NCBI GenBank assembly: GCA_037833965.1
Contig: AP031352.1
Span: forward strand, 9,404,501 to 9,468,500
DNA from: Marchantia polymorpha subsp. ruderalis
Taxonomy: Eukaryota > Streptophyta > Marchantiopsida > Marchantiales > Marchantiaceae
Length of the DNA: 64,000 nt
Direction: 5' to 3'
The notes beneath the pieces were generated by a model. The model saw nothing but the letters and a program-made list of their open reading frames with translations, was not told the origin of the DNA and ran no database searches. The position numbers and the translations under genes were made by a program. Positions 23,822 through 59,216 of this stretch are shown one piece after another (positions within the stretch are counted from its first letter, which is position 1; every line of letters begins with the position of its first letter).

Positions 23822-24466
23822 CTAGTATTGACCTGTGTACGGAGGTGGGGGAGACTTGACAGGAGGAGGCGGGGATTTTACAACAACGGGAGGAGGAGGA
23901 GACTTCGCTGGAGGTGGTGGAGAGGTCGGTTCGTATGAAGGAGGAGGAGGTGATTTAGCTGGAGGTGGTGGGGATTTCGCAACCATTGGGGGAGGTGGAG
24001 ATTTAGCTGGTGGTGGGGGAGACTTCATAACAACGGGAGGAGGCGGAGACTTGACAACTTCTGGAGGAGGAGGGGATTTAGCTGCAGGTGGGTTACAATC
24101 GGGAACCTGAGTAGGGGGAGACTTAGGCTTGCAAGGTTTGCGACCCTTGTAGCCCATCGACAGGCACTCCTCGTCATCTTTGCCCCCATAGTTTCCATCT
24201 TTCCAACCGCCGTCGCTTCCTCCCTTGCCATCTTTATGGCCGTCTCCGCCATTTCCTTTGTCGCTAGCGCCGCCATACTTGCCGCCACTGCTCCCGTCCT
24301 TCCGAGACTTGCCATCGCCACTCGATCCTCCGCCGTAGCCTGTCAAGGCTTGAAACTCGAGCTCGTCATATTCATGTCCATGAGCTTCGACAGAAGCCCA
24401 CAGCTGCACATTGAGAACGCTCACCAGAGCTATCATCACCAGAGTCTTGCATTCAAAGCGCCCCAT
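23822..24466 (-). CDS. Wall-protein gene A: Gly/Asp-rich extensin-like chimera
   Basis: A secreted cell-wall protein of 214 residues. A signal peptide (about residues 1-28, MGRFECKTLVMIALVSV...) is followed by EYDELEFQALTGYGGGSSGD, a Gly/Lys/Asp/Ser-rich segment, and the conserved linker EECLSMGYKGRKPCKP with a further Cys (VPDCNPP). The C-terminal half has ten Ser-Pro4 motifs (KSPPPPVVVKSPPPP type) and ends PPYTGQY. Ser-Pro4 blocks are classic sites of proline hydroxylation and arabinosylation in extensins; the N-terminal domain is not part of standard extensins. Single exon. It is the outermost and most diverged family member and lacks the DGKDGSDGKDG repeats of C and D. A TATA box lies about 100 bp upstream. 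Confidence 0.85.
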   Translation of the reverse strand: MGRFECKTLVMIALVSVLNVQLWASVEAHGHEYDELEFQALTGYGGGSSGDGKSRKDGSSGGKYGGASDKGNGGDGHKDGKGGSDGGWKDGNYGGKDDEECLSMGYKGRKPCKPKSPPTQVPDCNPPAAKSPPPPEVVKSPPPPVVMKSPPPPAKSPPPPMVAKSPPPPAKSPPPPSYEPTSPPPPAKSPPPPVVVKSPPPPVKSPPPPYTGQY

Positions 24467-28739: not shown

Positions 28740-30251
28740 TAAGCACAGTTTCGATAAGGTCAACGTCAACTGATGGGAAGCAGTGAGGCAGCCTCCGGAG
28801 CTTACTTAGATAGTTACAGTCCTCCATAACCAGTTCGATACCCAGAGACTGAATAGATTTATAGGATATGATGATGATCTTGTTAGAAAGCAGAAATGCA
28901 AGACAGATTTTCCAGCAAGAAGAATCGTAGAGGATAAATGAATGACTGAATGCTCTCCGTCTACAGTCGTAAAATCTTTCATGTTACAGTTTACATATTG
29001 CAGCCCAAACAAAATACAAAACGTTTGAGAGTCTGAGGTAACAGTAAAGGTTACTATTTAGTAGACTTCCTAACTTTACAGCTGTCATGTCGGTAGATTG
29101 AACTTGGGATTTGATTCTACTTAACAAACACAGAATATAACATGCTCGTCTACAGATCGATTTCTTCCTTTTAACGAGTAAAATCTAAGTTGGCAACTTG
29201 TATTGGCATCGGGCTACATCGGGCTAACGCGTTGCTCTCGGCGATGATAACAAAGAATCAGAAATAGCAGCTCAAACAAAGTTAGAGTTGTTCGTTTCTA
29301 CGTAATCAGATGCAAAGGAACAACTTCCGGTGCAAGAGAACAACTTCTTCAGATTGATTTATGAAATTTCAATCTATTATTGAATCATAATTGATATTGG
29401 AGGTTGTACACATAAGTTAGTTCAGATATGAAGACCTGCTGTTTTCATTCACTCTTCAGTCTCGTGAAAACTACACATGCTTACGGAACCGAATTTAGAA
29501 TCCTCTAAGCAGCTAGACTAATGTGCATGACAATAAGATGGATGATACTGTGTAATAAACTTGCAGACCTTAGAGCTTCCAGAATGGTGGATTTGAATGT
29601 ATCTTGCTGGATCGACTGTATCTTGGATTGATGTTGCTTAACATCTCACAGTATGTGATCACAAACCGTAATAAGCTCGGCTGCAGAGTGATTTCTTGCT
29701 TTTTCATGATTGAAAGCTGAGTCGGTATTGGCAGAGGGCTACAATGTGATTGCTCTACGCAATGATGACAATCAGACACAGCAGACTCAAACGAAGTCAA
29801 AACTGTTCGTACCTACGTAATCAGATCACATTCCAGTGTAAAAACACGAGCTTTTCCGATGAATGTATGAAGCATCATGCTAATATCTGAATCCATTATT
29901 GACATTGAAGGTTGTACAGAGAAATGAAGAGATGAACAGCGTTTTCATTCACTCTTCTGTCTTGTGAAATCTGCATTCGCTTACAGAACCCATTCTATAT
30001 TAATCTAAGAACCTAAAGTATTGTGAATGACAACAGGTAAATTGGCCTCCGCCAAGACACCTAGTCACCCTAAGAGCACAGTGAACTCATCTATCCTTAA
30101 ATTTTATAAAGCGCACTACAACTCTGATTCACACGTTATATAGGCAGTGCTGGTGTGATATCCTCATTGATGGTGGTAAGCTCAAGAGGCATTGGTAGTA
30201 TCAATAACTGTTGTATTGATAAGAGCTTACAGCGCCGAGCGCAAGTCCGAT
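28740..30251. repeat. 3' flank of gene B with a tandem duplication of about 0.48 kb
   Basis: 28740-29050 resembles 33560-33860 downstream of gene C. About 29080-29500 and 29560-30010 are diverged copies of each other: both contain TTTCTT...TTGGCATCGGGCTAC-like sequence, TACGTAATCAGAT and TTTTCATTCACTCTTC. The same text recurs at 33930-34240. The flank just before the stop codon retains only the second half of the C/D hairpin (GTATTGATAAGAGCTTAC near 30213). Confidence 0.6.
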
Positions 30252-30998
30252 CTAATAGCTGTATGTTGGTGGAGACTTGATCGGGGGTGGAGGGGACTTG
30301 ACCACCACTGGAGGGGGTGGGGATTTTGCAGGAGGTGGTGGAGACTTCTGTACGTATGGAGGAGGAGGAGATTTTGCTGGAGGGGGTGGAGACTTCTGTA
30401 CGTATGGAGGCGGAGGAGATTTTGCTGGAGGAGGTGGTGATTTGGCCACAACGGGAGGAGGGGGAGATTTCATCGGTGGAGGAGGGGACTTCACAACCAC
30501 GGGAGGAGGTGGCGATTTTGCCGGAGGAGGTGGCGACTGAGGTGTGTAGGAAGGAGGAGGGGGAGATTTCACGACGACGGGAGGAGGGGGGGACTTCGCT
30601 GCAGGTGGGTTACAATCGGGAACCTGAGTAGGGGGAGACTTAGGCTTGCAAGGTTTGCGGCCCTTGTAGCCCATCGACATGCACTCCTCGTCGTCATTGT
30701 CGTGCTCATCTTTGCCTCCGTAGTTTCCATCTTTCCAACCGCCGTCGCTTCCTCCCTTGCCATCTTTACGGCCGTCTCCGCCATTTCCTTTGTCGCTACC
30801 GCCGCCATACTCGCCGCCACTGCTCCCGTCCTTCCCAGACTTGCCATCGCCACTCGATCCTCCGCCGTAGCCTCTCAAGGCTTGAAACTTGAGCTCGTCA
30901 TATTCATGCCCTTGAGCTTGGACAGAAGCCCACATCTGCAGAGCGAGAACGCTCACCAGAGCTATCATCACCAGAGTCTTGCATTTGAGGGGTCCCAT
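30252..30998 (-). CDS. Wall-protein gene B: Gly/Asp-rich extensin-like chimera
   Basis: 248 residues, single exon. Signal peptide MGPLKCKTLVMIALVSV..., then GHEYDELKFQALRGYGGGSS, a Gly/Lys/Asp-rich segment with KDEHDNDDEECMSMGYKG, the linker GRKPCKPKSP and the third Cys in VPDCNPP. Thirteen Ser-Pro4 motifs follow, several separated by YVQ. The C-terminus is shortened to IKSPPTYSY, where C, D and E read IKSPPPPYTVPYY or a near match, so a small deletion removed the last Pro block without breaking the frame. A secreted, probably O-glycosylated wall protein. It is the palindromic partner of gene E. Confidence 0.85.
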   Translation of the reverse strand: MGPLKCKTLVMIALVSVLALQMWASVQAQGHEYDELKFQALRGYGGGSSGDGKSGKDGSSGGEYGGGSDKGNGGDGRKDGKGGSDGGWKDGNYGGKDEHDNDDEECMSMGYKGRKPCKPKSPPTQVPDCNPPAAKSPPPPVVVKSPPPPSYTPQSPPPPAKSPPPPVVVKSPPPPMKSPPPPVVAKSPPPPAKSPPPPYVQKSPPPPAKSPPPPYVQKSPPPPAKSPPPPVVVKSPPPPIKSPPTYSY

Positions 30999-31095
30999 AT
31001 TTATGAATCAAGTTATACACTCTGTGAGAGCTGTGGCTGAAGCCTGTGTGTGGATTCCAACTCGATTATGATATTGAAGATCGCTCGAGCCTCTC

Positions 31096-31100
31096 TTATA
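31096..31100 (-). promoter_or_regulatory. TATA box of gene B
   Basis: TATAA on the minus strand in GTCCTATAAGAGAGGCT, about 100 bp upstream of the ATG. Slightly weaker than the TATATAA of A, C and D. Confidence 0.65.
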
Positions 31101-31295
31101 GGACTCCGCTTGCAACACGACACACAAGAATAAAGACCTCAACAAACTTCGTTTCTGTGAGTAAAACTGTGCAATTGTGCATAGAAGTGGGGACGGTCCT
31201 AGCCGGTGTAGCCGTGGTCTACAGGTCTTCGACCTATAGATTTGCATGCATACAACGGAGATAAAGTGCTGCGGAGATACGACCTGCCACTGGAA

Positions 31296-31326
31296 CATGA
31301 ATTCTCTCGAGCTTCGTGACGTGAAA
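31296..31326 (-). promoter_or_regulatory. Conserved 31-bp upstream block, gene B copy
   Basis: Minus strand TTTCACGTCACG...CTCGAGAGAATTCATG, 298 bp from the ATG. Contains the ACGTCA (TGACGT) core typical of bZIP binding sites. Confidence 0.7.
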
Positions 31327-33544
31327 ATCTTGCACTGCACACATCGTGAGTAGTAAAGCCTAAATGTGGACAGATTCAGAAGACGAGACAAGAGATTGCT
31401 GCTATTCACACTGTAGTTATGACACTGTATAGTTTCGATTCACTTGCTTCTTGCTGGCCTCAGAGATCTGGAAGCACTGCAGCTGCATCCGGCTTCATGA
31501 CCTACTTTTGTGTTTTCTCGACATGATCACTGCAATGTCAATTAAATTCTAACTCAAACTAGAAAAAGACGTGATTGTAAGCGACCAACTTCGCTTTGAG
31601 AGCAATCAGTTTACCATTCTTTCGGACATTGTGAAGCAACAAAGAGCTGAGACACGACATGATTGACATGTCTCATGATTCCAGGATTCGTGTGCGAGCT
31701 GACGATTGTTCAAGTCGGTGATTCGAGCTGTTGTGGAGGCTCGACGCTGCACATGCGTGCAGCAGGATTCGTACTCTCTACTCAATGTGAACACAAATAC
31801 TCCATGCAGCAGCAAGCATGTTCTCCAGAGGTTAATCTCATCCACAGGGAATAGTTCTGCAAACTTGCAGCTGTCACCAAACGAAATGGTATGGTGAGAG
31901 TCTTTTAGAATGTGCAGGTTACTTTCTCGTTCTGTACAGTGAGGGTAGAAGGTAGAATTTCGCCATGTGGTTTCATGTTTCGATGACTTGGTAGCCAACC
32001 ATATGAGCTGTCTCATTACAGATAAGAATTAGACAAAATCTTCGACTTCTTTCTTATAAAAGAGCCATAGATAAGGTCAATGCTATCAAATTGCTTCTTT
32101 CGCTAGAGATTATCAGATTGTAGAAAAAGACTTGAGCAAGTACACATTCTTGTTACTAATCAGACTCATAAGCTTGCTACATATGGATAAGCTTCTGCCA
32201 GTTTGTACAAATCGGAGATGAGACTTCCAGTAGTCCCATCTGTTTCACTTATGGTACGTAATTCTGTCAAGGTGAGATTTAGGTAGTAGCAAGCTGCATA
32301 TAATCACGTGAGCTGATTGCATCATGATTAACAACATCACGACCGCATGTCGACGGAGCAGCAAGGCCACTTGGACGTCCATAGCAGCTTTAGACTTTTT
32401 GTCAATAGCTGCTCTCTCCGCATGCTAAAGCGATTGTTTTCTAAAAAAGGATAGACAGTGAGCATTGTATATCTACGTGAGCTGCGTGGACGTCTGATTA
32501 TTTGTTCCGCAAACTTTTCGAAAGACACTGCTACTAATGTCCATTTCTAGGTTTATTTTTGAGTAGGATATTGAATCCTTCTTCATTTAGCTTGACTAAA
32601 TGTATAATTCATTTTGAATCCTTGTAGAGTAACGTCTATATTCATGTGTCACTACTACCAAAGATAAGACATATAATAGCACAGATGAAATCACTTCGTA
32701 ATTCATTCTTTTTTTTATATGTGGATTTCTTGGTCACGGACATATATTATATACTTCATCTCTGTTTCTTTTAGTTTATAGATACTTAGTACTGTTTATA
32801 TAGTGATATATTTCATCAAACAAAGGTAAACTTTCACTTTATTGAAAAGATGCGCATATTTACAAATTTATAACCAAAATTTTTCAAAATGAAAAAGACA
32901 ATGTTTAAGTTAATGTTTTTGGTATTAGTTATATAATTATTAATGATGAGAATTTTAATTAGCTAAATACTTCTAAAAAAGTCAATTTTCATGTGATTAG
33001 ATTAACAAAAAAAAATTTATATTCGTCTGAAATCCATAAACAGAAAAAATTTTGAACGTGATATATATTTTCTGATAAATCTTGCTGGATATTATAAAAT
33101 CTGCATTGTGTTCAAAAAATATGAAGGTTTCTAATTCATTGGATCATGTAGTTCATTGCGTTCAAAATTGTCTCAATATTAACAATGTCATGTGATATTT
33201 GTAAAAAAAATTATTTACCAAGTTATGACAATAAATTTGATAGTTTCCATAAACCTGGTTGTCATTTTAATATAGTTTGATTGAATCTTTAGACTATATC
33301 ATTGTAATATATAATAATAAACTATAAATGATCAGAAAAAATTTATGATCTTATTCGAAATAAAAATTTCTTATTTTATTATGAATTCAAAATTTAAATT
33401 GTAATTTTCACTTTGAAATTTTAAATGATACAAAATCTAAGATTTTAATCTAGATTATGAAATAAAATTATAAATCCAAGCTATCATTGATAAAAATATA
33501 TCTATAATAAATTGAAAAAATCATTTCTAATCCCACACATTGTT
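31327..33544. other. 5' flank of gene B and AT-rich stretch
   Basis: 31327-32540 is shared with E (inverted) and in part with A. It contains a 136-codon minus-strand ATG frame (32016-31606) that is interrupted by stops in the E copy, so it is probably not coding. 32540-33545 is AT-rich, gene-free and mirrored in the other arm near 40380-41400. Confidence 0.5.
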
Positions 33545-34553
33545 CTAAATGAAAAAGTTTTTATATAAACTATAAACTACAAAACCAGACGTCAACCAAT
33601 GCTGATAATTGAGTGAGCCTTGTATCGTACTAAGAAGGTTATACTCCTTCATAATCAGTTGGCTGTCCAACAACTCATTTGAATTGTAGGATTTGTTGAT
33701 GACCGTGATAGAAAGCAGAACTTCCCACCATTTACGGATAGTGGACAAATCGATGACCCAATGACCGAATGCTCTCCGTTGAAATCTAAAGTCGACGAAG
33801 ATGCCCACAGATGATACCAAACGTTTGAGAAATAACAGCAGCAAACATGGATATTAAATTAATAGACTTGCAGATGTAAGAGCTACCACGTCGGTAATTT
33901 GACTGTAACTTGGGATTTGAATTTGCTCAACAAACAGACTGGAACATGCTCGGCTGCAGATTGAATCCTTGCTCTTGACGAGAAAAATTGAAGTGGCTGT
34001 CTGTATTGGAATTGGCCTACAATGTGCTGTGTCTGCAGGATGCTGAAAGACAATAAAAAAACTGCTGTTTCGAATTTTCGAATTCACTTACTCAGATGAC
34101 ATTCCAGTGTAAGAGCACGAGTTTCTGCACAGGTGTTAAAAACTTGATACGAATATCTGAATCAGAAATTATATTGGAAGTTGTATACAGAATTTGGTTC
34201 AGAATGAAAACATGAACACATTGTACGTTCTCATTCACTCTTCGGTATCATATGCAGATTTCATGCGACATCTGCAGATGATACCGAATCTAGAATCCTG
34301 TGCGGAGCTAAACGATTCTGTATGACAGCATTTAAAATGGAGTTCGCCAGGAACGTAGTCACGCCCGAAGCAAAGTGACTTAATACCTCTCTAAATTCTA
34401 CAAAGGCACTACAGAGCTGGTATGATCTGCCGACCAAGGATCCAAATAAGTGCTGGTATGATAACCTCATTGATGTTGGTAAGCTCGAGGGGTAAGCTCT
34501 TATCAATATCTGATGTATTGATAAGAGCTTACAGCCGCGGGCGCAAGTCCGAT
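33545..34553. other. 3' flank of gene C
   Basis: Non-coding, mirrored at 39333-40340. Parts recur downstream of B. The first 60 bp after the stop of C contain the conserved hairpin. Confidence 0.55.
34492..34532. repeat. Perfect 17-bp-stem hairpin after gene C stop
   Basis: GTAAGCTCTTATCAATA (34492-34508), a 7-nt loop, then its exact reverse complement (34516-34532). It begins 21 bp past the stop codon of C on the minus strand, so it would lie in the 3' UTR. Present unchanged after gene D. Confidence 0.9.
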
Positions 34554-35597
34554 CTAGTAGTATGGAACTGTGTATGGTGGTGGGGGAGACTTGATCGGGG
34601 GTGGAGGGGACTTGACTACCACTGGAGGAGGTGGGGATTTTGCGGGAGGTGGTGGAGACTTCTGTACGTATGGAGGAGGAGGAGATTTTGCTGGAGGCGG
34701 AGGGGATTTGACTACCACTGGAGGAGGTGGGGATTTTACGGGAGGCGGTGGAGACTTCTGTGCGTACGGAGGAGGAGGAGATTTTGCTGGAGGAGGTGGT
34801 GATTTGGCCACAACGGGAGGAGGGGGAGATTTCATCGGTGGAGGAGGGGACTTGACAACCACGGGAGGAGGTGGCGATTTTGCCGGTGGTGGCGGCGACC
34901 GAGGTGAGTATGAAGGAGGAGGGGGAGATTTCACGACGACGGGAGGCGGCGGAGACTTGACAGGAGGCGGCGGCGATTTCACAACAACTGGAGGAGGGGG
35001 GGATTTCTTCGGAGGTGGTGGAGACTTGGGGCCCTGGGGAGGGGGAGATTTTGCAGGAGGAGGAGACACGGGCTTGCAGGGCTTGCGGCCCTTGTACCCC
35101 ATTGCGGTGCAATCCTTGTGGTCTTTGTCTTTGCCGTCGTGATCATCATTGTCGTCGTGATGACCGTCTTTACCGTCGTTGCCGTTCCCGTGGTCTCCCT
35201 TATCGTCATGGCCATCCTTGCCATCCTTGCCGTCTTTGCCATCGCCTTTGTCACGTCCATGGCCATCCTTGCCGTCACTGCCGTCTTTGCCGTCGCCTTT
35301 GTCACGTCCATGGCCATCCTTGCCGTCACTGCCGTCTTTGCCGTCGCCTTTGTCACGTCCATTGCCATCCTTTCCATCACTGCCGTCCTTGCCATCGCCT
35401 TTGTCACGTCCATGGCCATCCTTGCCGTCACTGCCGTCCTTGCCGTCGCCACTCGATCCTCCGCCGTAGCCTGTCAAGGCTTGAAACTCTAGTCCGTCAT
35501 GTTCATCGTCAAGGGCTTCGACAGAGGCCCATAACTGCAGAGCGATGACGCTCACCAGAGCTACGATCAACAGAGTCTTGCATCTAAAGCGCCCCAT
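34554..35597 (-). CDS. Wall-protein gene C: DGKDG-repeat extensin-like chimera
   Basis: 347 residues, single exon. Signal peptide of about 28 residues (MGRFRCKTLLIVALVSV...), then EFQALTGYGGGSSGDGKDG and four 17-residue repeats of DGKDGSDGKDGHGRDKG. Each repeat is a run of Gly-X-Asp triplets with short breaks, encoded by 51-bp DNA repeats. An Asp/His-rich stretch (DGHHDDNDDHDGKDK) and the linker DCTAMGYKGRKPCKP follow. The C-terminal half has 19 Ser-Pro4 motifs spaced by VVVK, AK, VK and YVQK, ending PPPPYTVPYY. Compared with A, B and E, the third Cys (VPDCNPP) is missing. A secreted, hydroxyproline-rich wall protein with an acidic, possibly cation-binding N-domain is the natural inference. 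Nearly identical to gene D. Confidence 0.88.
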   Translation of the reverse strand: MGRFRCKTLLIVALVSVIALQLWASVEALDDEHDGLEFQALTGYGGGSSGDGKDGSDGKDGHGRDKGDGKDGSDGKDGNGRDKGDGKDGSDGKDGHGRDKGDGKDGSDGKDGHGRDKGDGKDGKDGKDGHDDKGDHGNGNDGKDGHHDDNDDHDGKDKDHKDCTAMGYKGRKPCKPVSPPPAKSPPPQGPKSPPPPKKSPPPPVVVKSPPPPVKSPPPPVVVKSPPPPSYSPRSPPPPAKSPPPPVVVKSPPPPMKSPPPPVVAKSPPPPAKSPPPPYAQKSPPPPVKSPPPPVVVKSPPPPAKSPPPPYVQKSPPPPAKSPPPPVVVKSPPPPIKSPPPPYTVPYY

Positions 35598-35680
35598 GTC
35601 TCTCAGTTGAGTACTAAGAATCCGTATGAGCTGCGAGTGGACTCGAACTCGATTATGATAGTCGACTGCACTTGAGCTTC

Positions 35681-35687
35681 TTATATA
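35681..35687 (-). promoter_or_regulatory. TATA box of gene C
   Basis: TATATAA on the minus strand in GAGTCCTATATAAGAAGCTC, about 85-90 bp upstream of the ATG. Identical in gene D. Confidence 0.8.
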
Positions 35688-35862
35688 GGACTCCAGTGAC
35701 TACATTACGAGGCAAATAGACTCACGACGACTGAGTTACTCTATACACTAGAGTAACTCAGATCGATTGCATTTTGGCCAGTAAGTGTAGTAGTGGAGAC
35801 ATCGAGGCGTTATGGTGGGGTACATTCGGACTTCACGGACCGATCAGTTGCCCAGGTGGCGA

Positions 35863-35893
35863 CATGAATTCTCTCGAGCTCCGTGACGTGAAA
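35863..35893 (-). promoter_or_regulatory. Conserved 31-bp upstream block, gene C copy
   Basis: Minus strand TTTCACGTCACGGAGCTCGA then GAGAATTCATG, 266 bp from the ATG, the same spacing as in gene D. Confidence 0.7.
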
Positions 35894-36085
35894 TCCATGC
35901 GGCGAGTATGTCGTGAGTAATGTATGCTAAATGTGGACAGGACCGGAAGAAGAGACAAGCCACAGTATTCTTCTAGCTTGTAAAATTTACCGGTCCGCTG
36001 TTTTTCTTATTCATCTTGCTGCTTGCTGGCTTCATGTGGTTGGAGAAGGCACAACGTGGGGCGACGACGGCTCGATCAATTCTCG

Positions 36086-37701
36086 GATCTTCACGGCTGA
36101 ACATGTTTAAGACGGATATATCATACTACACTGCATTGTGATTGTTACCATAATTTTTGACAATTATTTATAAGACACTGAGGTTACTTTATTATGTACA
36201 CAATGAACTAACACCACATTTGAAACATATAATCTAATAAGCATTAAGACATTTCGGACTTGTATATAATATAGGTAATATATAATATTATATATTACCA
36301 AAAATTTGGTTATCTCAAGCAAATCATGTATCAGTAGAGAAAAAACAATGTTGTCCCGGATGGATTGTATGTAACATTCTCTTCCACCATCAAGACCATA
36401 AAGCACCCTCAGGGCTGCTTTAATATAGGTGTTGATTTCAAAGCTAACGTCTTACTAAAGAAAGGAGAGGTAAAGAGGTGTCTGTGTTTCTAAAATTATC
36501 GGGTTATGTTACGGGCTGAATTTTTAGGTAGAGTATGTTGAAGGAACTCTATTATGCACCAAAAGTTTTGATTCATGGGGTTAACTGCACAGGTTGAAGA
36601 AAGTGCACACGCATTGACCAAAAGTAGATATATCATTATGTGAATAGATTCTATATTTTTTATTATAATCAAATTACCACTTTGAGAAGGCTGGATAGTC
36701 AGCTCTGAACTTACGTAGAAATCTTTTGAAATCTTTGCCCGTGAAAGTTATGGGTTTCATACTCAGAGTTCAGAGATACAATAAAATGTATGTAATAAGT
36801 GATCAATTGTTAATCGAATTTGCTCTAAACCTTGTCAAAACATTATCACTCCTATTCTGACCGCTGACTTCTTATCCATTATCAAATTTTTAGAAAGAAG
36901 GCTCGCAGTCTGATCCTCGCCATACAATCAGTAAGTTCTGTTTGAGTGTAGCTGTCTTAATAAAACGTCGAGCTCAATGTCTTTCACTCGTTCCGCATCG
37001 TTCCTATGACAACATAGGACCGATTGACTTCTATAAAGGCACTCCTTCTGAATGGTAGCTTGAATCGGTCGCAAATTCAGAGACACAACTTTCGATAACT
37101 AGATACCCCAATCAGTCATGTACTCCTGGGAGTTTGTCATGGCTGTAGTACTTGAGAAAATGCTCCTTGAAATCAAAGTCTGAGATGTTTACATATTTAT
37201 CGCATTTCCATTTTCGGTTATGTAGGTAAATATCATTCAGGGGTAGTGTTGGTGAGCAGAAGCTCAAAAACACGTACTTATGAGCTAATCTGCAAAAATA
37301 ATATCCGACGTAAACTGTACACCTTAAACCAAAAGCCTTAGCTCTACCATCTCAATATTACTAAGAGAAACCATCCACTCTGCACCACAGCTTCACGTTA
37401 ACTTACGGGTTCTTAAAGTTCCAGATACAAATCTCATGATTAGGAAAATTCTCTCCTCCTCCCCCTTGTGCTCCGGTTGCTCAGAATAGTCCACATCCTC
37501 CTCCACGAGAGCGTAGTGTCTAGGTTATAGCAAATTGACTGATGTAAGAAACAGTTCTACCAGTTCAATCAGCCTCAATTCAGCGAATCACATCTGAAAC
37601 TGCTCGGAACCATTGGAGTCAGTAGATTTTGTCAAAAATTTATCTGGTCTGAAACACGTCTAGGAAAACATGTTCTGTGGTCATGATCTTATCCAGGAAC
37701 T
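36086..37701. other. Spacer at the centre of the palindrome
   Basis: 1616 bp with no counterpart elsewhere in the window and no recognisable gene. AT-rich at 36130-36350, including a TATAATATTATATATTA-like run near 36280. Confidence 0.6.
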
Positions 37702-37893
37702 CGAGAATTGATCGAGCCGTTGTCGCCCCACGTTGTACCTTCTCCAACGACAGGAAGCCAGCAAGCAGCAAGATGAATAAGAAAAACAGCGGACGGGAAA
37801 ATTCTACAAGCTAGGAGAATACTGTGACTTGTCTCTTCTTCCGGTCCTGTCCACATTTAGCATATATTACTCACGACATACTCGCCGCATGGA

Positions 37894-37924
37894 TTTCACG
37901 TCACGGAGCTCGAGAGAATTCATG
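37894..37924 (+). promoter_or_regulatory. Conserved 31-bp upstream block, gene D copy
   Basis: TTTCACGTCACGGAGCTCGA then GAGAATTCATG, ending 266 bp before the ATG. Same sequence as in gene C. Confidence 0.7.
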
Positions 37925-38099
37925 TCGCCACCTGGGCAACTGATCGGTCCGTGAAGTCCGAATGTACCCCACCATAACGCCTCGATGTCTCCACTACTAC
38001 ACTTACCGGCCAAAATGCAATCGATCTGAGATACTCTAGTGTATAGAGTAACTCAATCGTCGTGAGTCTATTTGCCTCGTAATGTAGTCACTTGAGTCC

Positions 38100-38106
38100 T
38101 ATATAA
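38100..38106 (+). promoter_or_regulatory. TATA box of gene D
   Basis: TATATAA in GAGTCCTATATAAGAAGCTC, 84 bp before the ATG. Confidence 0.8.
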
Positions 38107-38189
38107 GAAGCTCAAGTGCAGTCGACTATCATAATCGAGTTCGAGTCCTCTCGCAGCTCATACGGATTCTTAGTACTCAACTGAGAGAC

Positions 38190-39332
38190 ATGGGGCGCTT
38201 TAGATGCAAGACTTTGTTTATCGTAGCTCTGGTGAGCGTCATCGCTCTGCAGTTGTGGGCCTCTGTCGAAGCCCTTGACAATGAACATGACGGACTAGAG
38301 TTTCAAGCCTTGACAGGCTACGGCGGAGGATCGAGTGGCGACGGCAAGGACGGCAGTGACGGCAAGGATGGCCATGGACGTGACAATGGCGATGGCAAAG
38401 ACGGCAGTGATGGAAAGGATGGCAATGGACGTGACAAAGGCGATGGTAAAGACGGCAGTGACGGCAAGGATGGCCATGGACGTGACAAAGGCGATGGTAA
38501 AGACGGCAGTGATGGAAAGGATGGCCATGGACGTGACAAAGGCGACGGCAAAGACGGCAGTGACGGCAAGGATGGCCATGGACGTGACAAAGGCGATGGC
38601 AAAGACGGCAAGGATGGCAAGGATGGCCATGACGATAAGGGAGACCACGGGAACGGCAACGACGGTAAAGACGGTCATCACGACGACAATGATGATCACG
38701 ACGGCAAAGACAAAGACCACAAGGATTGCACCGCAATGGGGTACAAGGGCCGCAAGCCCTGCAAGCCCGTGTCTCCTCCTCCTGCAAAATCTCCCCCTCC
38801 CCAGGGCCCCAAGTCTCCACCACCTCCGAAGAAATCCCCCCCTCCTCCAGTTGTTGTGAAATCGCCGCCGCCTCCTGTCAAGTCTCCGCCGCCTCCCGTC
38901 GTCGTGAAATCTCCCCCTCCTCCTTCATACTCACCTCGGTCGCCGCCACCACCGGCAAAATCGCCACCTCCTCCCGTGGTTGTCAAGTCCCCTCCTCCAC
39001 CGATGAAATCTCCCCCTCCTCCCGTTGTGGCCAAATCACCACCTCCTCCAGCAAAATCTCCTCCTCCTCCATACGCGCAGAAGTCTCCACCGCCTCCAGC
39101 GAAATCTCCTCCTCCTCCGTACGCACAGAAGTCTCCACCGCCTCCCGTAAAATCCCCACCTCCTCCAGTGGTAGTCAAATCCCCTCCGCCTCCAGCAAAA
39201 TCCCCTCCTCCTCCATACGTACAGAAGTCTCCACCACCTCCCGCAAAATCCCCACCTCCTCCAGTGGTAGTCAAGTCCCCTCCACCCCCGATCAAGTCTC
39301 CCCCACCACCATACACAGTTCCATACTACTAG
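38190..39332 (+). CDS. Wall-protein gene D: DGKDG-repeat extensin-like chimera
   Basis: 380 residues, single exon, near-identical to gene C in inverted orientation. Signal peptide, GYGGGSSGDGKDG, then five 17-residue DGKDGSDGKDGHGRDKG-type repeats (C has four). The same Asp/His-rich stretch and DCTAMGYKGRKPCKP linker follow, then 21 Ser-Pro4 motifs (C has 19; the extra piece is a second AKSPPPPYAQKSPPPP). The 33-residue length difference from C is thus exactly one 17-residue and one 16-residue unit. This is the signature of repeat-number change by unequal exchange or slippage. The promoter and 3' hairpin match gene C. Inferred role as for C: a secreted wall glycoprotein with a repeat-built acidic domain. 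Confidence 0.88.
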   Translation: MGRFRCKTLFIVALVSVIALQLWASVEALDNEHDGLEFQALTGYGGGSSGDGKDGSDGKDGHGRDNGDGKDGSDGKDGNGRDKGDGKDGSDGKDGHGRDKGDGKDGSDGKDGHGRDKGDGKDGSDGKDGHGRDKGDGKDGKDGKDGHDDKGDHGNGNDGKDGHHDDNDDHDGKDKDHKDCTAMGYKGRKPCKPVSPPPAKSPPPQGPKSPPPPKKSPPPPVVVKSPPPPVKSPPPPVVVKSPPPPSYSPRSPPPPAKSPPPPVVVKSPPPPMKSPPPPVVAKSPPPPAKSPPPPYAQKSPPPPAKSPPPPYAQKSPPPPVKSPPPPVVVKSPPPPAKSPPPPYVQKSPPPPAKSPPPPVVVKSPPPPIKSPPPPYTVPYY

Positions 39333-39353
39333 ATCGGACTTGCGCCCGCGGCT

Positions 39354-39394
39354 GTAAGCTCTTATCAATACATCAGATATTGATAAGAGCTTAC
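39354..39394. repeat. Perfect 17-bp-stem hairpin after gene D stop
   Basis: Same 41-bp inverted repeat as after gene C, starting 21 bp past the stop codon. Conserved arms and loop. Confidence 0.9.
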
Positions 39395-42300
39395 CCCTCG
39401 AGCTTACCAACATCAATGAGGTTATCATACCAGCACTTATTTGGATCCTTGGTCGGCAGATCATACCAGCTCTGTAGTGCCTTTGTAGAATTTAGAGAGG
39501 TATTAAGTCACTTTGCTTCGGGCGTGACTACGTTCCTGGCGAACTCCATCTTAAATGCTGTCATACAGAATCGTTTAGCTCCGCACAGGATTCTAGATTC
39601 GGTATCATCTGCAGATTTCGAATGAAATCTGCATATGATACCGAAGAGTGAATGAGAACGCACAATGTGTTCACTTCTGAACCAAATTCTGTATAAAACC
39701 TCCAACATCATTTCTGATTCAAATATTCGTATCACGTTTCAAATAACTGTGCAAGTGTCGTGCTCTTACACTGAATGTCATCTGATTAAGTAGATACGAG
39801 CATTCGAGTCTGCAGTTGTTTATTGTCTTCCATCATCGTGGACACACAGCACATTGTAGCCCAATGCCGATACAGATAACCAACTCAAACTTCTCTCGTT
39901 AAGAGCAAAGAATCAATCTGCTGCCGAGCATGTTGCAGTCTGTGTTTGTTTAGCAGCTTCAAATCCCAAGTTACAGTCAAAATACCGACGTGGTAGCTCT
40001 AATATTTGCAAGTCTATTAAGTTTAATACCCATGTTTGCTAGTTAAAATTCTCAAAAAATTTGTATCCTCTATGGACATCTTCGTCTTTAGATTTGAACG
40101 GAGAGCATTCGGTCATTCGGTTATCGATTTGTCCTCTCTCCGTATATGGCGGGAAGGTCTGCTTTGTATCACGGTCATCAACAAATCCCACAAATGAGTT
40201 GCTGGACACTGTCCAGCAATGAATGGCTGTCCAGTGGACAGCCATTCATACCAGGACATAGCTTCATAGAACGATACAGAGGCTCACTCAATCATTCCCA
40301 TTGGTTGAAAATGGGATTATGGGAATTGCGCTTAATTTTCTACAATAGAAAACAGCGATATCTTTCAGTTTAGGTAACGAGGTCACTTTATGAACTTCAA
40401 CAAAAGTATTTAAAAAATTACCAAATTATTTGTATACATTGATAAATATGATAAATGAAAAAATGTATATTTAAGTACATCGAAATTCTTTAATTCTTGT
40501 TATGAACTGAAAAAATCTGATGAAGATTTGGAAGATAGAAGAAATTTTTTTCAGTTTTTTATTCACTTTCTTAGATTTTTTGAATCACAAATGTTATTTC
40601 ATTGTGATCATTTATTTTATTGCATGCTAATAAAATTATTTTAAATTACCTTTGGATTTTTTAATTTGTAGTATGTATTCGTTTAAATATAAATTAAAAA
40701 AAGTATTTGGTTCATGTCGTATTGTTTTAAATGTTATAAATGTATGTAGATATATTATTCAATGATAGCTTGAAATTTTTATCTTAATTTAAATACTATA
40801 TTTAAATTTTTTATCATTTTTAAAAATAAATTATTCAATTTAAAATTCAACTATAGGTACGATTCAGAAATTTTGAAAAAAATAAAATTTTAAAAATCTA
40901 AATTATAGATTTTTATTTTTATTTTTATTTTATATAAATTTTACTATATATTTCTATATATCATAATATTATCCAATCAAACATTATTGAAATGCAAAAC
41001 ATGTTTCTTGAGATTATCAAGTTTATTACAACAATAAAATACAAATTTTATCAATATTTACCATATCCCGAAGAACTTAATGAAAATATAGTTACTTTCC
41101 AAAAACAAATCTTGGATTTTAGACTAATGTAAAATTTTTTTTGAAATTATGAAATTATTATTTTAAATATATTACTGTGAAATATTATGGTTATAATTTT
41201 GAAATTATGCGCATCATTTCAATATAGTGAAACTTGACCTTTGTTTGACATAATGTATCACTAAAGAAATCTGTACTAAGGATCTGCAAACTAAAAGAAG
41301 AAGAGATGAAGTATAGAATATATATCAAACAAAGTCGGTGACCAAGAAATCCATGCATGAATCACAATATGATTTATACCCGGATTGCTAATATGTGTTA
41401 TCTTTAGTGTTACTAGCAGTGTCTTTCGAAAAATTCGGGGAACAAACAATCAGACGTCTACGCAACTCACGTAGATATACAATGCTCACTGTCTATCCTT
41501 TTTTAGAAAACAATCGCTTTAGCATGCGGGGAGAGCAGCTATAGACAAGAAGTCTAAAGCTGCTATGGAAGTCCAAGTGGCCTTGCTGCTCCGGTGACAT
41601 GCGATCGTGATGTTATTCATCATGATGCAATCAGCTCACGTGATTCTATGCAGCTTGCTACTACTTAAATCTCAACTTGACAGAACTCATTTACGTACCA
41701 TAAAGTGAAACACATGGGAGTACTGGAAGTTTCAACTCCGATTTGTACAAACTGGCAGAAGCTTATGCATATGTAGCAAGCCTATGAGTCTGACTAGTGA
41801 CAAGAAGGTGTACTTGCTCAAGTCTTTTTCTACAATCTGATAATTAAATCTCTAGCGAAAGAGGCGGTTTGATAGCATTGAATTAACCTGTGGACCTTTT
41901 AGAAGAAAGAAGTCGAAGATTTTGTTTAATTCTTATCTGTAATGAGACAGCTCATATGGTAGGCTACTAAGTCATCGAAACATGAAACCACATGGCGAAA
42001 TTCTACCTTCTATCCTCACTGAACAGAACGAGAAAGTAACCTGCACATTCTAAAAGACTCTCACCATACCATTTCGTTTGGTGAAAGCTGCAAGTTTGCA
42101 GAACTATTCCCGGGGAATGAGATTAACCTCTGGAGAACATGCTTGCTGCTGCATGGAGGTTATGTGTCCACAAAATTAGAGAGTTAGAATCCCGCTGCAC
42201 GCAAGCGCAGCGTCGAGCCTCTACAACAGTTCAGATCACCGACTTCAACAATCGTCAGCTCGCACACGAATCCTGGAATTACGAGACATGTCAATCATGT

Positions 42301-42632
42301 CGAGTCCCAGCTCTTTTTTGCTTCACAATGTCCGAAAGAAAGGTAAACTGATTGCTCTCAAAGCGAATTTCGTCGCTTACAATCACGTCTTTTTCTAGTT
42401 TGAGTTAGATTTGAATTGCCATTGGCAGCGATCATGTCGAGAAAGTGCAAAAGTTGAATCATGAAGCCGGATGCAGCTGCAGCGGTTCCAGATCTTTGAG
42501 GCCAGCAAGAAGCAAGTGAATCGAAACTATACAGTGTCATAACTACAGTGTGAAAAGCAGCAATCCCCTGTCTCGTCTTCTGAATCTGTCCACATTTAGG
42601 CCTTACTACTCACGATGTGTGCAGTGCAAGAT
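39395..42632. other. Flanks between D and E
   Basis: 39395-40370 mirrors the 3' flank of C. 40380-41250 is very AT-rich. 41250-42632 mirrors the upstream flank of B. No intact gene. The frame equivalent to the 136-codon frame near B is broken here by several stops. Confidence 0.5.
40199..40249. repeat. Two abutting perfect palindromes in the right arm only
   Basis: TTGCTGGACA-C-TGTCCAGCAA (40199-40219) overlaps by one base a 31-bp palindrome, ATGAATGGCTGTCCA-G-TGGACAGCCATTCAT (40219-40249). At the mirrored site in the left arm (near 33660-33680) only GGCTGTCCAACAACTC is present. The right arm therefore gained templated inverted copies of local sequence. Confidence 0.85.
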
Positions 42633-42663
42633 TTTCACGTCACGAAACTCGAGAGAATTCATG
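42633..42663 (+). promoter_or_regulatory. Conserved 31-bp upstream block, gene E copy
   Basis: TTTCACGTCACGAAACTCGA then GAGAATTCATG, ending 298 bp before the lost start codon. Core TCACGTCA retained. Confidence 0.65.
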
Positions 42664-42858
42664 TTCCAGTGGCAGGTCGCATCTCCGCAGCACTTTATCT
42701 CCGTTGTATGCATGCAAATCTAAAGGTCGAAGACCTGTAGACCACGGCTACACCGGCTAGGACCGTCCCCACTACTATGCACAATTGCACAGTTTTACTC
42801 ACAGAAACGAAGTTTGTTGAGGTCTTTATTCTTGTATGTCGTGTTGCAAGCGGAGTCC

Positions 42859-42865
42859 TATAAAA
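42859..42865 (+). promoter_or_regulatory. TATA box of gene E
   Basis: TATAAAA in GAGTCCTATAAAAGAGGCTC, about 100 bp before the lost start codon position. Confidence 0.65.
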
Positions 42866-42960
42866 GAGGCTCAAGCAATCTTTTATATCATAATCGAGTT
42901 GGAATCCACACACAGGCTTCAGCCACAGCTCTCACAAATTGTAACACTTGCTTCATAGAT

Positions 42961-43650
42961 ATAGGACCCCTCAAATGCAAGACTCTGGTGATTATAACTC
43001 TGGTGAGCATTCTCGCTCTGCAGATGTGGGCATCTGTCGAAGCTCAAGGGCATGAATATGACGAGCTCAAGTTTCAAGCCTTGACAGGCTACGGCGGAGG
43101 ATCGAGTGGCGATGGCAAGTCTCGGAAGGACGGGAGCAGTGGCGGCAAGTATGGCGGCGCTAGCGACAAAGGAGATGGCAAGGGAGGAAGGGACGACGGG
43201 TGGAAAGATGGAAACTCCGGGGGCAAAGATGAGCACGACAATGACGACGAGGAGTGCCTGTCGATGGGCTACAAGGGCCGCAAACCTTGCAAGCCTAAGT
43301 CTCCCCCTACTCAAGTTCCCGATTGTAACCCCCCTGCAGCTAAATCCCCTCCTCCTCCAGTCGTAGTGAAATCTCCCCCTCCTCCTTCATACTCACCTCA
43401 GTCGCCACCACCACCGGCAAAATCGCCACCTCCTCCCGTGGTTGTGAAGTCCCCTCCTCCACCTGCGAAATCACCTCCTCCTCCTGTTGCGGCTAAATCA
43501 CCACCACCTCCGGCAAAATCTCCCCCTCCTCCATACGTACAGAAGTCTCCACCACCTCCCGCAACTTCCCCACCCCCTCCAGTGGTGGTCAAGTCCCCTC
43601 CACCCCCGATCATGTCTCCCCCACCACCATACACAGTTCCATACTACTAG
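42961..43650 (+). pseudogene. Wall-protein gene E: start codon lost (ATG to ATA)
   Basis: Aligned to gene B, the start codon is ATA (42961-42963) followed by GGACCCCTCAAATGC. From that point the frame is intact for 229 residues: signal peptide body, GHEYDELKFQALTGYGGGSS, a Gly/Lys/Asp-rich segment, EECLSMGYKGRKPCKPKSP, VPDCNPP, twelve Ser-Pro4 motifs and PPPPYTVPYY. Two Lys residues before Pro blocks have changed (ATSPPPP, IMSPPPP). No in-frame ATG lies upstream within the open frame. The next one (in LQMWASVEA) would cut off most of the signal peptide. Either the gene is newly silent, or it uses an alternative start, an upstream spliced exon or RNA editing. Everything else is preserved, so the loss looks recent. 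Confidence 0.75.
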
Positions 43651-45180
43651 ATTGGACTTGTGTTCGGGCTGAGATCTCTTGTCTATAGAAGTGGTAAGTG
43701 GATTTGGAGCTGCATTATAATGATAAGTTTGTTATTTCTCAACAGCACTCTAGAAACGAGGTCTCAAGTGTGGATTCATATTTCAGTATTCAAGCTATGT
43801 ACTTTGTTTCCGATGCCTGAAGCCTGTTGATGATGTGCAGATCAGTGGAGAATATCTTACCAGCACTGATTTGGATCCGTGATCGGCAACTCATACCAGC
43901 ACTGCCCTCATCACTCAGATCCAGGATAGTGGTGCTCTTTGTAGAATTTAGAGATAGATGAAGTCACTGTGCTTTGAGCGTGACTAGGTTCCTGGAGACT
44001 GCCAATTTTACCTGTTGTCATGCACGATCGTTTAGCTTCCTAGAGTAGAAGACATTCCGTATGTAAATTCCACGAGACCGAAGAGGGAATGAAAACGTCA
44101 AAACGTGTTCATGTGTTCAACTTCTGCGTATAATTCCAGTATCAACTATGATTCAATAATTCGTGTGGGGTTTCATACATCCATCTAAGAAGTTCTTATT
44201 TTGTAGTGGAATGTCATATGTTACATAGATTCAACTCAACAACATGTCCTCAACCACGTCCCTAAGTTCGGCTGGCAAGTCAAAGCTAAGGTCGGTAGCG
44301 ACTACTGACGCTGAGATTAATTCTAGACCATGAACTAAACACATGAAATTTAATGTAACTCAATCTTAAGACGATCCACATCCCCTCACTTGCAATTGAT
44401 ACCAAAATCGCTTACGATAATTCGTAATCTTAAAATAAGAATTTATCTAAACACATTGCATCAACATGACGCGAGGTTTGTAAAATAGCGTGGATGAAAC
44501 ATTCTGGATTGGGATGAATGAAGTAATTACCAATAAACATGAGATTACGAGTGAACCTGGAGGAGATGAATTATGGTTTACTTAAGATATCCCGTTGGTT
44601 TTGCTCTATGTTCTTAACATTTTGCATATTTGTAACTTAGATGTAACTAGTAATTACATGTGATAATCGGAGATAGAAATTGGAAATGTATAGAGAAATA
44701 TGTTTTATTATTAATATTATTAATACCAAAGCCAATCCCAGGGAACAGTAAAGCTATAAGTATATACCAATATGTAAATGGATACGTATTCTTCTTTTTT
44801 ATTCTTATCTAAATTCTATTTCGAAATAATTATTATTATACTCTAATAAATTTTCTGAAATATAGTATTTACATGATATAAAAGAAAAAAAAAGCCCCAA
44901 GATTACCTATCATCTTTTAAAAAAAGTTGTATAGCTCATGTTCAAATGTCTAAAAGATTTGAGTAGAGACAACGGTGATGATTTTTGGAGTTGAATTGTA
45001 CTAGAGTCTGCACATGATTCATGTCATGAATGGACAATGCATAATTGTAGGCGAAAAGGTGGCGTCATGCAGAACAAAACACGGGAAGTACTAAAGATCT
45101 CCGGACAGAAATGTCCCGAACTTTTTTATTTTCAGTGCTCATTTACTTTCGTCATACATTAAATCTACTTTCCCTCATTT
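43651..45180. other. 3' flank of E and AT-rich intergenic DNA
   Basis: 43651-44230 is a diverged mirror of the 3' flank of B. It lacks the complete hairpin. 44400-44960 is AT-rich. No gene seen. Confidence 0.45.
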
Positions 45181-46865: not shown

Positions 46866-47595
46866 CGAACCGGAATCTGCGCATCGACGGGGTCTCATTG
46901 CGGTGCTGTCACTCTCAAAGGAATCCAAGCGACTTTGTTTCCCAGTTCCTGATCGTCTCGCAACACGGGGACGTAACGTGTGAAGCAGGCCCTCGCCCGT
47001 CGAGGGAGACAAGATACAGCGCAGGCGTGAAGCCAAATCTCTGGCTTGGCTGACAGCTGGCGGGCGCCACGCAGCAGCGAGGCCTGCTTCCTCGTTGTTT
47101 CCGGTTGCGATTCCGTCGAAAACGTCCGCCTTTTCGGCTTGCGGGACACTCGTTCTCCTTCGAAAAGCTTCTGCGGCGACGCTTTTTCGGTGTCGTCGAT
47201 GCAGAGCGCAAGCTCCCGGCAGCTTCCTGGGGCTGTGGATAAGTGCGAAGCGCCCGTCCGGAGCGCCAGGTTCCGGATATGGAATCTTCGCACGCGCCTC
47301 CGGAAACGCGTCCAGGTGAATGATCCGTCCACATCGGACCTCGGCGGGAAGGCTCGTGGGCTCCGCCCCCGCCGCTCCGGGCTTGTCTTTATCCTAACGG
47401 AAATTGGGAAATCACAGAGCGATTTGTGGCAGATTACTGTTGCTTCCTGCTCCCGATATCTGTTATCTGATCCGCTGACGGCATTCGGCCCAAGTCGCCC
47501 GGTCCACTGGGGTTTGCGACGATCCAGTGGACAAGGAGTAGATTGTTTCCCTCGCCCCTAACCCGTGACGACTCGACGCCCCTTCTCGTGTTCGT
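46866..47595. other. CpG-rich stretch upstream of the C2 gene
   Basis: Markedly GC- and CpG-rich compared with the rest of the window, so several frames on both strands stay open for 140-170 codons. None carries family features. It may be a promoter CpG-rich island or a young insertion. Confidence 0.4.
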
Positions 47596-48035
47596 GATAT
47601 TTAATATTGAGGAAGACAAATTATCCGAAGCTGTCTCCTGCTTCACAGTTAGCGGTGTTCACTGTGTTCTCTGCTTCTGATATTTAATATTGAGGAAGAC
47701 AGATTATCCGAAGCGGTCTCCTGCTTCAGAACTAACTGTGTTCTCTGCTTCTGATATTTAATATTGAGGAAGACAAATTGTCCGAAGCGGTCTCCTGCTT
47801 CATAGTTAGGCTAACTATGAAATTTAATATTGAGGAAGACAGATTGTCCGAAGCTGTCTCCTGCTCCATAGTTAGCAGTGGTGTCCTCTGCTTCTGGATT
47901 TTGAAATTGAGGAAGACATATTATCCAAAGCGGTCTCCTGCTTCAGAGTTAGCCGTGTCCTCTGCTTCTGATATTTAATATTGAGGAAAACAGATTATAT
48001 GAAGCTGTCTCCTGCTCCAGAGTTAGCGGTGTCCT
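47596..48035. repeat. Minisatellite, six units of about 66-83 bp
   Basis: Units start at 47596, 47679, 47753, 47819, 47896 and 47970. Each has GATATTTAATATTGAGGAAG, ATTATCCGAAGCGGTCTCCT and GTTCTCTGCTTCT with small changes. The diverged units and uneven lengths indicate an old array. Confidence 0.9.
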
Positions 48036-53485: not shown

Positions 53486-53970
53486 TAGAGTTGTCTTGTT
53501 GATGCGACACAAGCTATTGTGGTAGTGGATTGTATCATAATCTATAGTTAAAATCTCAATTTTTATTATTTAGAGTTGACTATTATATAAGACACAAATT
53601 GTATTTTTGTATTTTTTCCTATCCATTGTATCATAATCTATAGTTGAAATTTCAATTCTTATGATTTAGAGTTGACTCGTTTATACAACACAACCTATAG
53701 TTATAGATTGTATTTTTTCCGATCCATTATATCATAATCTATAATTGAAGTCTCAATTCTTATGATTTAGACTTCACTCATTGATACGACACTTCTTGTT
53801 GTGGTAGTGAATTGTACTTTTTCCAATCCATTGTATCATGATCTATATTTGAACTCTCAATTCTTATGATTTAGAGTTCTCTTGTTCATACAACACAATA
53901 TGTTGCAGGGATTATACTTTTCTCTATTATATGATAATTTCTTGTTGAACTTTCAATTTAGATGATGAAA
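53486..53970. repeat. Tandem repeat, about 100-bp unit, four copies plus partial ends
   Basis: Units begin at about 53528, 53623, 53724 and 53828 with CATTGTATCATAATCTATAG, followed by CTCAATTCTTATGATTTAGA and GTTGACTCGTT. Satellite-like, AT-rich, diverged. Confidence 0.8.
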
Positions 53971-55681: not shown

Positions 55682-58011
55682 ACGCTAAAGTAACTATATA
55701 AACATTTTGAGTAACCTCTACTTTAGTTCTAACTAACTAAATATGATTATTCGTAATGATCAAATTGTTTATTGAAAAAAATATGTAATTAAACCTAGAT
55801 TTTTCACTCATTTTTATAAGAAAGTCCATTGGCATAGTGCAATCAAATGTCTTGCATTTAATCTTGTGAGTTATGCCCAAATCAATGTTACACGAGACTA
55901 GGAATTGGATCAACATGGACCAAACCTATTTCAAATTTACTTCTAAGAACAATTGAAATTTATTGTTGGACTCACAAAATAAGAATTTTATCCCATGATG
56001 GATTGGTACATGGTATATAATGAATTGTAAAATCTTCTTGTGCTACAGACTGAAGTTATCATGTGGTTTTCTTTTTTTGAATTCTTGGACTTTTAAACTA
56101 AGCTTATGAAGATGCAAACTCATCTTCATAAACTTAACTACAATATGCATAATTTTTCTTTTAGTTTATGTTATTTAGTTATGAAGATTATCATGATTTT
56201 CATACTTAAATAGAATAAAGTAATAACATTAAAACTTAAACTTTTTTGCCAATCTATTTAGAAATAAATAAATATAAACATTTATAGATATTTAATAAAT
56301 AATTTTGTATCTTACATTGAAATAATTATTACTATATAAAAACCAAATCTTTGAGTATGATACAAATCAATAGTTTGAGTGAAGTAATTTATTAAAAAAT
56401 CAAATTTTCATAAACTAACTTCAAATTATATTGTTGATATAAATTAAATTCAACATGAGTGTTGGAAAAAAAGTTATATGTTGCTTGACTAAAGTTAAGC
56501 AACATATACTAAAAATTTTGAAAAGATATTCATATCATTGACTATGCATAGTTTCATACTAGTCTCATTCAAATCAAATGATGTTGTAGTATGCAATAAA
56601 GTTCAAATTTTTATGATTTGGAGATATATAATAATTGTTAATCTACAAAGTAAATATATTTGTGTATAATTTTTTTATCATCCATTATTACACTAATGAT
56701 TAAAAAATAAACTTGTTCAAAATTAAAATAAATTTATTAAGTATAACTAAAATGATCAAATCTCTAGTTATTTAAAATTTCCATTATATACAAGAGTATA
56801 AAATCTAATCTTTATTAATCATTTCACTTTTAATGAATTGATGACATGACACATTATTCCAACAAGCATACATATTAATGACATAATGATTTGAACGAAT
56901 AATTCCATTTCTTACTTAACATGCACACACATTGCTAGGTGTTGCTTTTGAGAAACATATTTATTTTTTAACTATCAAACTCAAATAACTATAATCATGT
57001 ATTATTTATAGATCTACATTTTGTAAATAGAATTAATAATGAACTTAAATCAATTCTATTTAATTTTTAGCTTATTATACATGAAAACTTGCCAGAATTT
57101 TTCCAACCTCAAATCAAATTTGCACACAAAATAGTATATTAAGATATATTTTTACCCTTTCTGAATTATCTTTCAAGTAAATTATGTATAAAAAATTCTT
57201 TTAATAATAAATAAATGATTTGAATGATAATTTGTATTTAGAAAATTTTAAAATTTGATGTTTAAAAAAAATTAATAAAAACCTTAAACAATTCTACTAG
57301 CAAAATTTATATTATCAAAATGCAAAATATTTTACAATAATTTAATATTTGTATATTCGATCATATTATATAAATTTTTGTGTTTACAAAATAAAATGAT
57401 GAATAGATAGTATTTTTATTTTTTCATATTTTATAAGTATTTTTGTGGTATTAAAGATATGAAGTTTTATTCTTTTTAATTCATGATAAAATTATCAATT
57501 GATGATAAAAATATGGCAATTTAAATTTTGTCTTTATATATTTTGATCATAGATAATTATTTTAGCAATTGATCTGATTTTTCTTTCACGAACTATTTGT
57601 TTACAATAATGTTCATTTAAAATTGTGAATGAAAATAATAATAATATAAATATACTCAAATTTTTATAGATTTATATATATTTATATGAGTAATAAGTAT
57701 TAAATTTTGAAATTATAACAAAAAAATTCTATAATGATCGATGGAAATATTAATAAAAATTTATTTGATTCAAAAAATTAATAAAAGATTATTTTACAAT
57801 TTTAATTATACTTTATGCAATCTTACGAAAAAAATAGTTGATTAAGATTTATATTATATATTTAAGATTATAAAAACATTAAAATATATTGAAAAAAAAA
57901 ACTTTTTAATATTTCATTATCAAAAAATTAAAATTTAAACATAGTCTATAATTAAAGTGGTATTAAGAATATTTATTTGTTAAAACTAATGTATTTGATT
58001 TCAACAACAGT

Positions 58012-58130
58012 TGTGACCTGCTCAAAAAAGAGAACATTGAGTAGTGACAACTGAAAGTATATAGAAAGTTATCGGCCATCAACGAACATATTATCAAAGA
58101 AAATTGGAAAGTGGTCTTCCGATATTTGTA
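58012..58130 (+). repeat. Dispersed repeat, copy 2 (AT-shifted)
   Basis: Aligned with 18236-18366. Many differences are C-to-T or G-to-A relative to copy 1 (for example AAAGTCGAGAGAAAG versus AAAGTATATAGAAAG), as expected after deamination of methylated DNA. Confidence 0.55.
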
Positions 58131-59179
58131 GAGAAAATGTTGGTTTTGATCAGGTCAGAGTAAATTGAATAGAGTTATCAAAATTATGGTACAGCCTTCA
58201 AACTAGGTATTCAGAGCTCTGTCTCAATTGCGTTTGAAATAAATTATTATTAAAGTGGTATTAATAATATTTATTTTGCTAAAATTAACTTATTTGATTA
58301 AATGAAATGTATACTTCATATCAGGATTATATAATAAATTTTAAAAATATTAATTATAATTAATATTTATAAATTATTTTTAAATTATTTCAAAAAAAGT
58401 CACTTAATTGAAGTAATGAACAAAAATATTTATAAAAAAGTATGTAAATTTATTGATAGCAAAATAAATATTATTAATTTGAGCACAAATAGAGCAAGCA
58501 TAGATTTAAGTATAATTTGCACATAAAACTATTTCAAATAGAATCAATATTACATTTGAATATCAAATGCATCAGATTTGATATTTTAGAATAAGTGAAA
58601 TGAATGATAGTAATATTTCATCGTTCATATTTTTTACAATTATTCAGTTTGAATGTTCTTGTAGTTGCATCATAAAATCATAAAAAAACATAAAAAAAAT
58701 CTTTGATGTTATAGTTTATGAAATCTCATACATACTCAAATATGTCTAAAAGTACAACTTTATAGAATTTCATATCTTATTCCTTAGTGAAATTTTTATT
58801 TTAGTGATAATTTTAATATTTTAGGAATCTAATTATTTTGTATATATGTTGACTAAAATAGACACAATGATTTAATATTAGCTGAATAATTTTTAATAAA
58901 AAAATTTCGGTGATTTTATCTGAATTAAATTCATTATATTTATGATAATTGACCAAATCAAAAATGTTAAATTGTATTTATTTTTCATAATAAATTGTAT
59001 TATATCAAATGCAGTTATGAATAAATTTGATCATAAATCAGACAAATATTATTTTGACATAAGCAAGTGCTGTGAAAAAAATGATGAAAACTGAAGCCAT
59101 ATAACTTATTCCCCCTACCATAAAAGAATGCATGTATGTAACACCACCAATAGTGCTCGCCAAAGCTCCGATTATTTAT

Positions 59180-59183
<4 letters not shown>

Positions 59184-59213: not shown

Positions 59214-59216
<3 letters not shown>

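Follow-up and report, generated by a model that had tools for sequence, protein, structure and literature searches.

Uneven divergence between the arms of a Marchantia palindrome of extensin-like genes suggests local gene conversion

An imperfect palindrome carrying extensin-like genes is present in the 64,000-nucleotide stretch of the Marchantia polymorpha subsp. ruderalis genome analysed here (the window). A picture of evenly similar arms does not hold, since zones of the palindrome differ in divergence from 0.1% to 29%, and the lowest values lie in one short tract over the inner gene pair, C and D. Judged from the sequence, this tract is best explained by gene conversion between C and D.

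Structure of the palindrome

The left arm (29813-36085, forward strand) and its inverted copy on the right (37702-44228, reverse strand) were delimited by self-blastn and arm alignment. Each arm spans ~6 kb and holds a pair of extensin-like genes: B and C in the left arm, D and E in the right. The main inverted blocks found by self-blastn are colinear, and comprise 30357-32537/43581-41410 (91.6% identity), 33664-34899/40208-38987 (89.4%), 34596-35451/39243-38387 (93.5%) and 35204-36085/38584-37702 (96.4%). Their top score is 3000 bits, whereas 20 Markov-1 resamplings of the window yielded no inverted match above 38 bits, and the inverted B-C and D-E copies proposed in the initial annotation are therefore real. 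Inner edges had been described as sharp at 36085 and 37702. These positions match exactly, but the edges are slightly ragged, because similarity continues weakly just past them in a 23-nt inverted match (36086-36108/37666-37688, 78%). The outer limits that had been given for the arms are backed by a weak but significant match between 29813-30158 on the left and 44228-43891 on the right (70%, E 2e-46 with permissive scoring). Part of the outer arm (44015-44211 on the right) recurs with 69% identity at 29325-29533, just outside the left arm.

The arms are separated by a spacer of 1616 bp (36086-37701), which is unique as had been reported: at an E-value of 1e-3, its sole blastn match in the window is to its own short AT palindrome. 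Eight of the 11 translated spacer fragments of at least 45 residues were scanned against Pfam and gave three weak matches, all far below the cut-off (best E 0.11), so a transposon origin of the spacer has no Pfam support in these eight fragments. Searches with Rfam, at gathering scores, and with ARAGORN gave no match and no tRNA, respectively.

Arms of this length had also been proposed to extrude or fold back. Spontaneous extrusion is made unlikely by mismatched arms and a long spacer, and the present arms, with ~9% mismatch and 1.6 kb between them, would be poor candidates for a cruciform or a fold-back structure.

A mosaic of divergence and a near-identical tract

Across 30220-36085 of the left arm, 495 of 5441 aligned gap-free columns are mismatched, a count that leaves out gapped columns and the outermost 29813-30219; overall arm identity is about 91%. 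In left-arm terms, mismatches occur at 38 of 573 sites in B/E coding sequence (from 30357), 106 of 1538 upstream of B/E, 233 of 790 in AT-rich intergenic DNA, and 79 of 588 in the outer 3' flank of C/D (33664-34269). The near 3' flank of C/D has a single mismatch in 284 sites and C/D coding sequence at 34554-35292 one in 739, and the numbers are 8 of 305 in the 5' coding sequence and 15 of 488 in the 5' flank. Neither the transition/transversion counts nor the CpG counts of the zones point clearly to methylation damage; CpG observed/expected ratios are 0.63-1.04 in six left-arm zones and 0.84 for the window.

The near-identity tract, which is absent from the initial annotation, corresponds in the arm alignment to 34270-35340 on the left and 38447-39616 on the right. 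It is ~1.07 kb long, has 2 mismatches in 1070 aligned sites, and covers C/D together with 284 bp of the adjoining 3' flank. Within 34270-35292, 2 of 1023 sites are mismatched, versus 23 of 746 inward of 35340. Its boundaries were placed as single maximum-likelihood change-points, each with a likelihood ratio (LR) reached in none of 2000 permutations. The outer change-point is at 34270 (2-lnL support 34226-34284), where the LR of 149 compares with a permutation maximum of 30. The inner one is at 35340 (support 35269-35340) and is much weaker, because its LR of 29.5 only just tops the permutation maximum of 26.5. When the arm was segmented independently under a stricter penalty, 34188-36084 stayed unsplit as one zone (29 mismatches in 1890 sites).

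The longest identical run has 656 aligned columns when counted across the 48-bp and 51-bp indels, and the gap-free maximum is 525. Three sets of 2000 permutations produced no run of 656 columns; the longest runs per set were 205 (whole arm), 249 and 311 (C/D block only). These permutations, like those behind the change-points, treat sites as exchangeable, which those of coding sequence are not. In the register of the nucleotide alignment, dS is 0.024 for C/D (345 codons, 2 skipped) versus 0.156 for B/E (222 codons, 26 skipped). Protein-guided alignment gives 0.048 versus 0.306, which is the same direction, and the higher values are attributed to repeats aligned out of register. The initial annotation had suggested that arms like these promote gene conversion, and the sharp tract supports this proposal for the C/D pair.

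Similarity in the outer genes is also patchy. In a mosaic scan with 120-bp windows, the proline-rich end of B and its 3' flank (30098-30578) are nearer to C/D than to the partner E in several windows; some windows place E closer to C or A, and two place B closer to A. Such a pattern suggests exchange among the copies, convergence of their repeats, or a loss from one partner.

The extensin-like genes

Genes B (30252-30998, 248 amino acids) and C (34554-35597, 347 amino acids, with DGKDG repeats) are on the reverse strand, and their inverted partners E (42961-43650) and D (38190-39332, 380 amino acids) are on the forward strand. A fifth family member, A (23822-24466, 214 amino acids), is outside the palindrome and on the same strand as B and C. 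By eye, all five are built to one plan, with an N-terminal stretch that is hydrophobic, a domain rich in Gly or DGKDG, the conserved sequence MGYKGRKPCKP, and a KSPPPP domain; the C-terminus of B is changed relative to A, C, D and E. D exceeds C by one 51-bp unit and one 48-bp unit.

Four wall-protein genes had been counted in the palindrome. B, C and D have an ordinary ATG start and an uninterrupted frame down to the stop codon. In E, the start codon shared by the other four family members, ATG, is replaced by ATA (42961-42963). Its frame is otherwise open to the stop for 229 codons, and the list of open reading frames starts it at TTG. A search of the same open frame upstream of E, from 42724, found no ATG. 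E is therefore a possible pseudogene, and should the loss of the start codon disable it, the palindrome would hold three genes and not four.

The extensin criteria quoted from PMC4769139 include two or more SPPP motifs and a signal peptide. SP3-5 motifs number 10 in A, 13 in B, 21 in C, 23 in D and 12 in E, so each of the five has the repeated motif many times over. The YXY cross-linking motif, which is present in some extensins and not required of all, occurs once in B and is absent from A, C, D and E. C and D score 16.3 and 16.5 bits against Pfam Extensin_2, below the cut-off of 20.8, and A, B and E are unmatched at E 0.1. Classical extensins carry SPn motifs throughout apart from the N-terminal signal, whereas these proteins have a long non-proline N-terminal domain rich in DGKDG or Gly, and their sequences fit the description "chimeric extensin-like" better. 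As in the chimeric extensins of PMC4769139, SP3-5 motifs are repeated over part of the protein. Unlike them, the present proteins have an N-terminal Gly/Asp/Lys-rich domain, YXY in only one of five, and an Extensin_2 match that is below the cut-off or absent.

When viral contigs were scanned with residues 1-140 of C, at least 33 loci matched; among the matches listed, all overlap the DGKDG stretch, which begins near residue 50. We read these loci as compositional matches and not as relatives.

A 12-bp hairpin, TGAGTTACTCTA...TAGAGTAACTCA, is found ~160 bp upstream of both C and D (at 35731-35760 and 38026-38055), with one mismatch in D. A search for the same motifs in the 500 bp upstream of A, B and E found none. 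The soybean CHS locus is reportedly subject to RNA-hairpin silencing. At the present locus, the inner genes C and D point away from each other, so a hairpin transcript of the arms would need read-through.

Origin of the palindrome and of the tract

A and B are 77% identical over 1.67 kb, and B and C are 62-67% identical, flanks included. Their sequences and shared strand give A, B and C the look of an older tandem array, and for this reason the left arm is probably ancestral and the D-E arm probably derived. We consider it likely that such an array was followed by inverted copying of its B-C end, divergence, conversion between C and D, and slippage. In this history, the B-C end of the extensin-like array A, B, C would have been copied in inverted orientation across the 1.6-kb spacer, so that C and D came to lie head to head with B and E at the outer ends. 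Divergence of the two arms would have followed, until a later conversion event between them overwrote about 1.1 kb of C/D and its 3' flank. The inner 5' flanks, which are 3% apart, may record an older conversion. After conversion, repeat-unit slippage would have altered the copy numbers of the 51-bp and 48-bp units, while the outer pair B/E would not have been kept alike and E would have lost its ATG. We infer both the order of these events and conversion, in place of some other copying event, as the origin of the tract; that the inverted copying took place by replicative template switching is a guess.

Two repeat-unit differences within a tract nearly free of substitutions call for fast slippage or for more than one tract. 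A tentative and rather unlikely extension is that the coding minisatellites themselves (51-bp DGKDG and 48-bp KSPPPP units) are sites of breaks or slippage that seed repeated conversion, so that the inner pair stays identical and the outer pair decays.

Strong selection that holds C and D identical would agree with their low dN (0.004). Protein constraint does not explain the tract, however, because noncoding and synonymous sites, including those of the 3' flank, are near-identical too, and the step from 13% to 0.2% divergence at 34270 is in noncoding DNA; we regard selection in place of conversion as extremely improbable. Near-identity could also be restricted to the inner gene, with no conversion at all, if B-C had been duplicated in inverted orientation long ago and the C/D segment replaced recently by a second, short inverted duplication. 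Yet colinearity holds to either side of the tract, an intermediate divergence of its own (3%) marks the inner 5' flank, and a clean in-register replacement is what conversion does, and we find this account quite unlikely.

Near-identical inverted copies are in general hard to assemble, and mirror-joined haplotypes, or consensus collapse followed by polishing, might produce a palindrome or a tract like the one seen here. A pure assembly duplicate is nevertheless unlikely, because the arms diverge by 3-29% elsewhere, differ by many indels, and include a lost start codon. Polishing would not be expected to erase 13% divergence in a unique 3' flank, and the 48- and 51-bp unit differences have been kept. 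The earlier case against a simple assembly duplicate, made from indels and repeat counts, thus stands and is joined by substitutions between the arms, and we assign an artefact a low probability, although part of the tract could come from assembly or polishing. Conversion between the arms remains the preferred explanation.

Other features of the window

Elsewhere in the window, a single open frame on the reverse strand (242-2974) encodes an LRR receptor-like protein (LRR_1 E 1.8e-49, LRRNT_2). An F-box protein is encoded at 14906-16330, with a weak KIB1-4 beta-propeller match below the cut-off; a scan of this protein against genome contigs gave 12 pattern matches and no relative. Taken with the extensin-like genes, the LRR receptor-like and F-box proteins indicate a land-plant source. 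The likely start of an M1 aminopeptidase gene is at 62541-63239, where Peptidase_M1_N matches above the cut-off over the first 55 of 186 profile positions. Ten other open reading frames, from the 158 of at least 75 residues in the window, have no Pfam match at E 0.01. Tandem arrays are located at 47595-48035 and 53529-53905, with units of about 74/143/217 bp and 101 bp, and the region 56001-60000 is very AT-rich (18-21% GC).

Comparison with known systems

Inverted gene duplicates with conversion are already well known. Concerted evolution of tandem genes by gene conversion has been suggested for the moss Physcomitrella, an earlier proposal cited in PMC3045890. Conversion among neighbouring duplicates is a known route, and the general picture of duplicate evolution is unchanged by this locus. 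In Folsomia candida, inverted duplication has given multi-gene palindromic collinear blocks with a wide range of Ks (PMC5490193). The present locus is likewise a multi-gene palindrome; the F. candida blocks are from an arthropod, some have more genes per arm, and no sub-gene tract is described in the parts of that paper drawn on here.

Primate sex-chromosome palindromes have arms of >99% identity with demonstrated arm-to-arm conversion (PMC8981503). Inverted arms and a unique spacer are shared with the Marchantia locus, where tract statistics support conversion. Unlike the primate arms, those described here are about 91% identical overall and have one near-identical tract; >99% identity over the arms, expected of a gene-converting palindrome, extends here over only about 1.07 kb.

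GSTT2/GSTT2B of African apes (PMC3375281) is a tandem inverted duplicate that is homogenised by gene conversion and in which silencing mutations build up in one lineage. Both loci are inverted gene duplicates, homogenised by conversion in the apes and probably so in part in Marchantia. The GSTT2/GSTT2B unit is 29 kb, mammalian, and 99.4% alike in humans, whereas near-identity here covers only about 1.1 kb of a ~6-kb arm, in a plant. At the Marchantia locus, conversion has probably homogenised one gene pair of a palindrome, and the neighbouring pair decays. As a compact natural example, the locus could serve to measure the limits of conversion tracts and the slippage of coding repeats in a plant.
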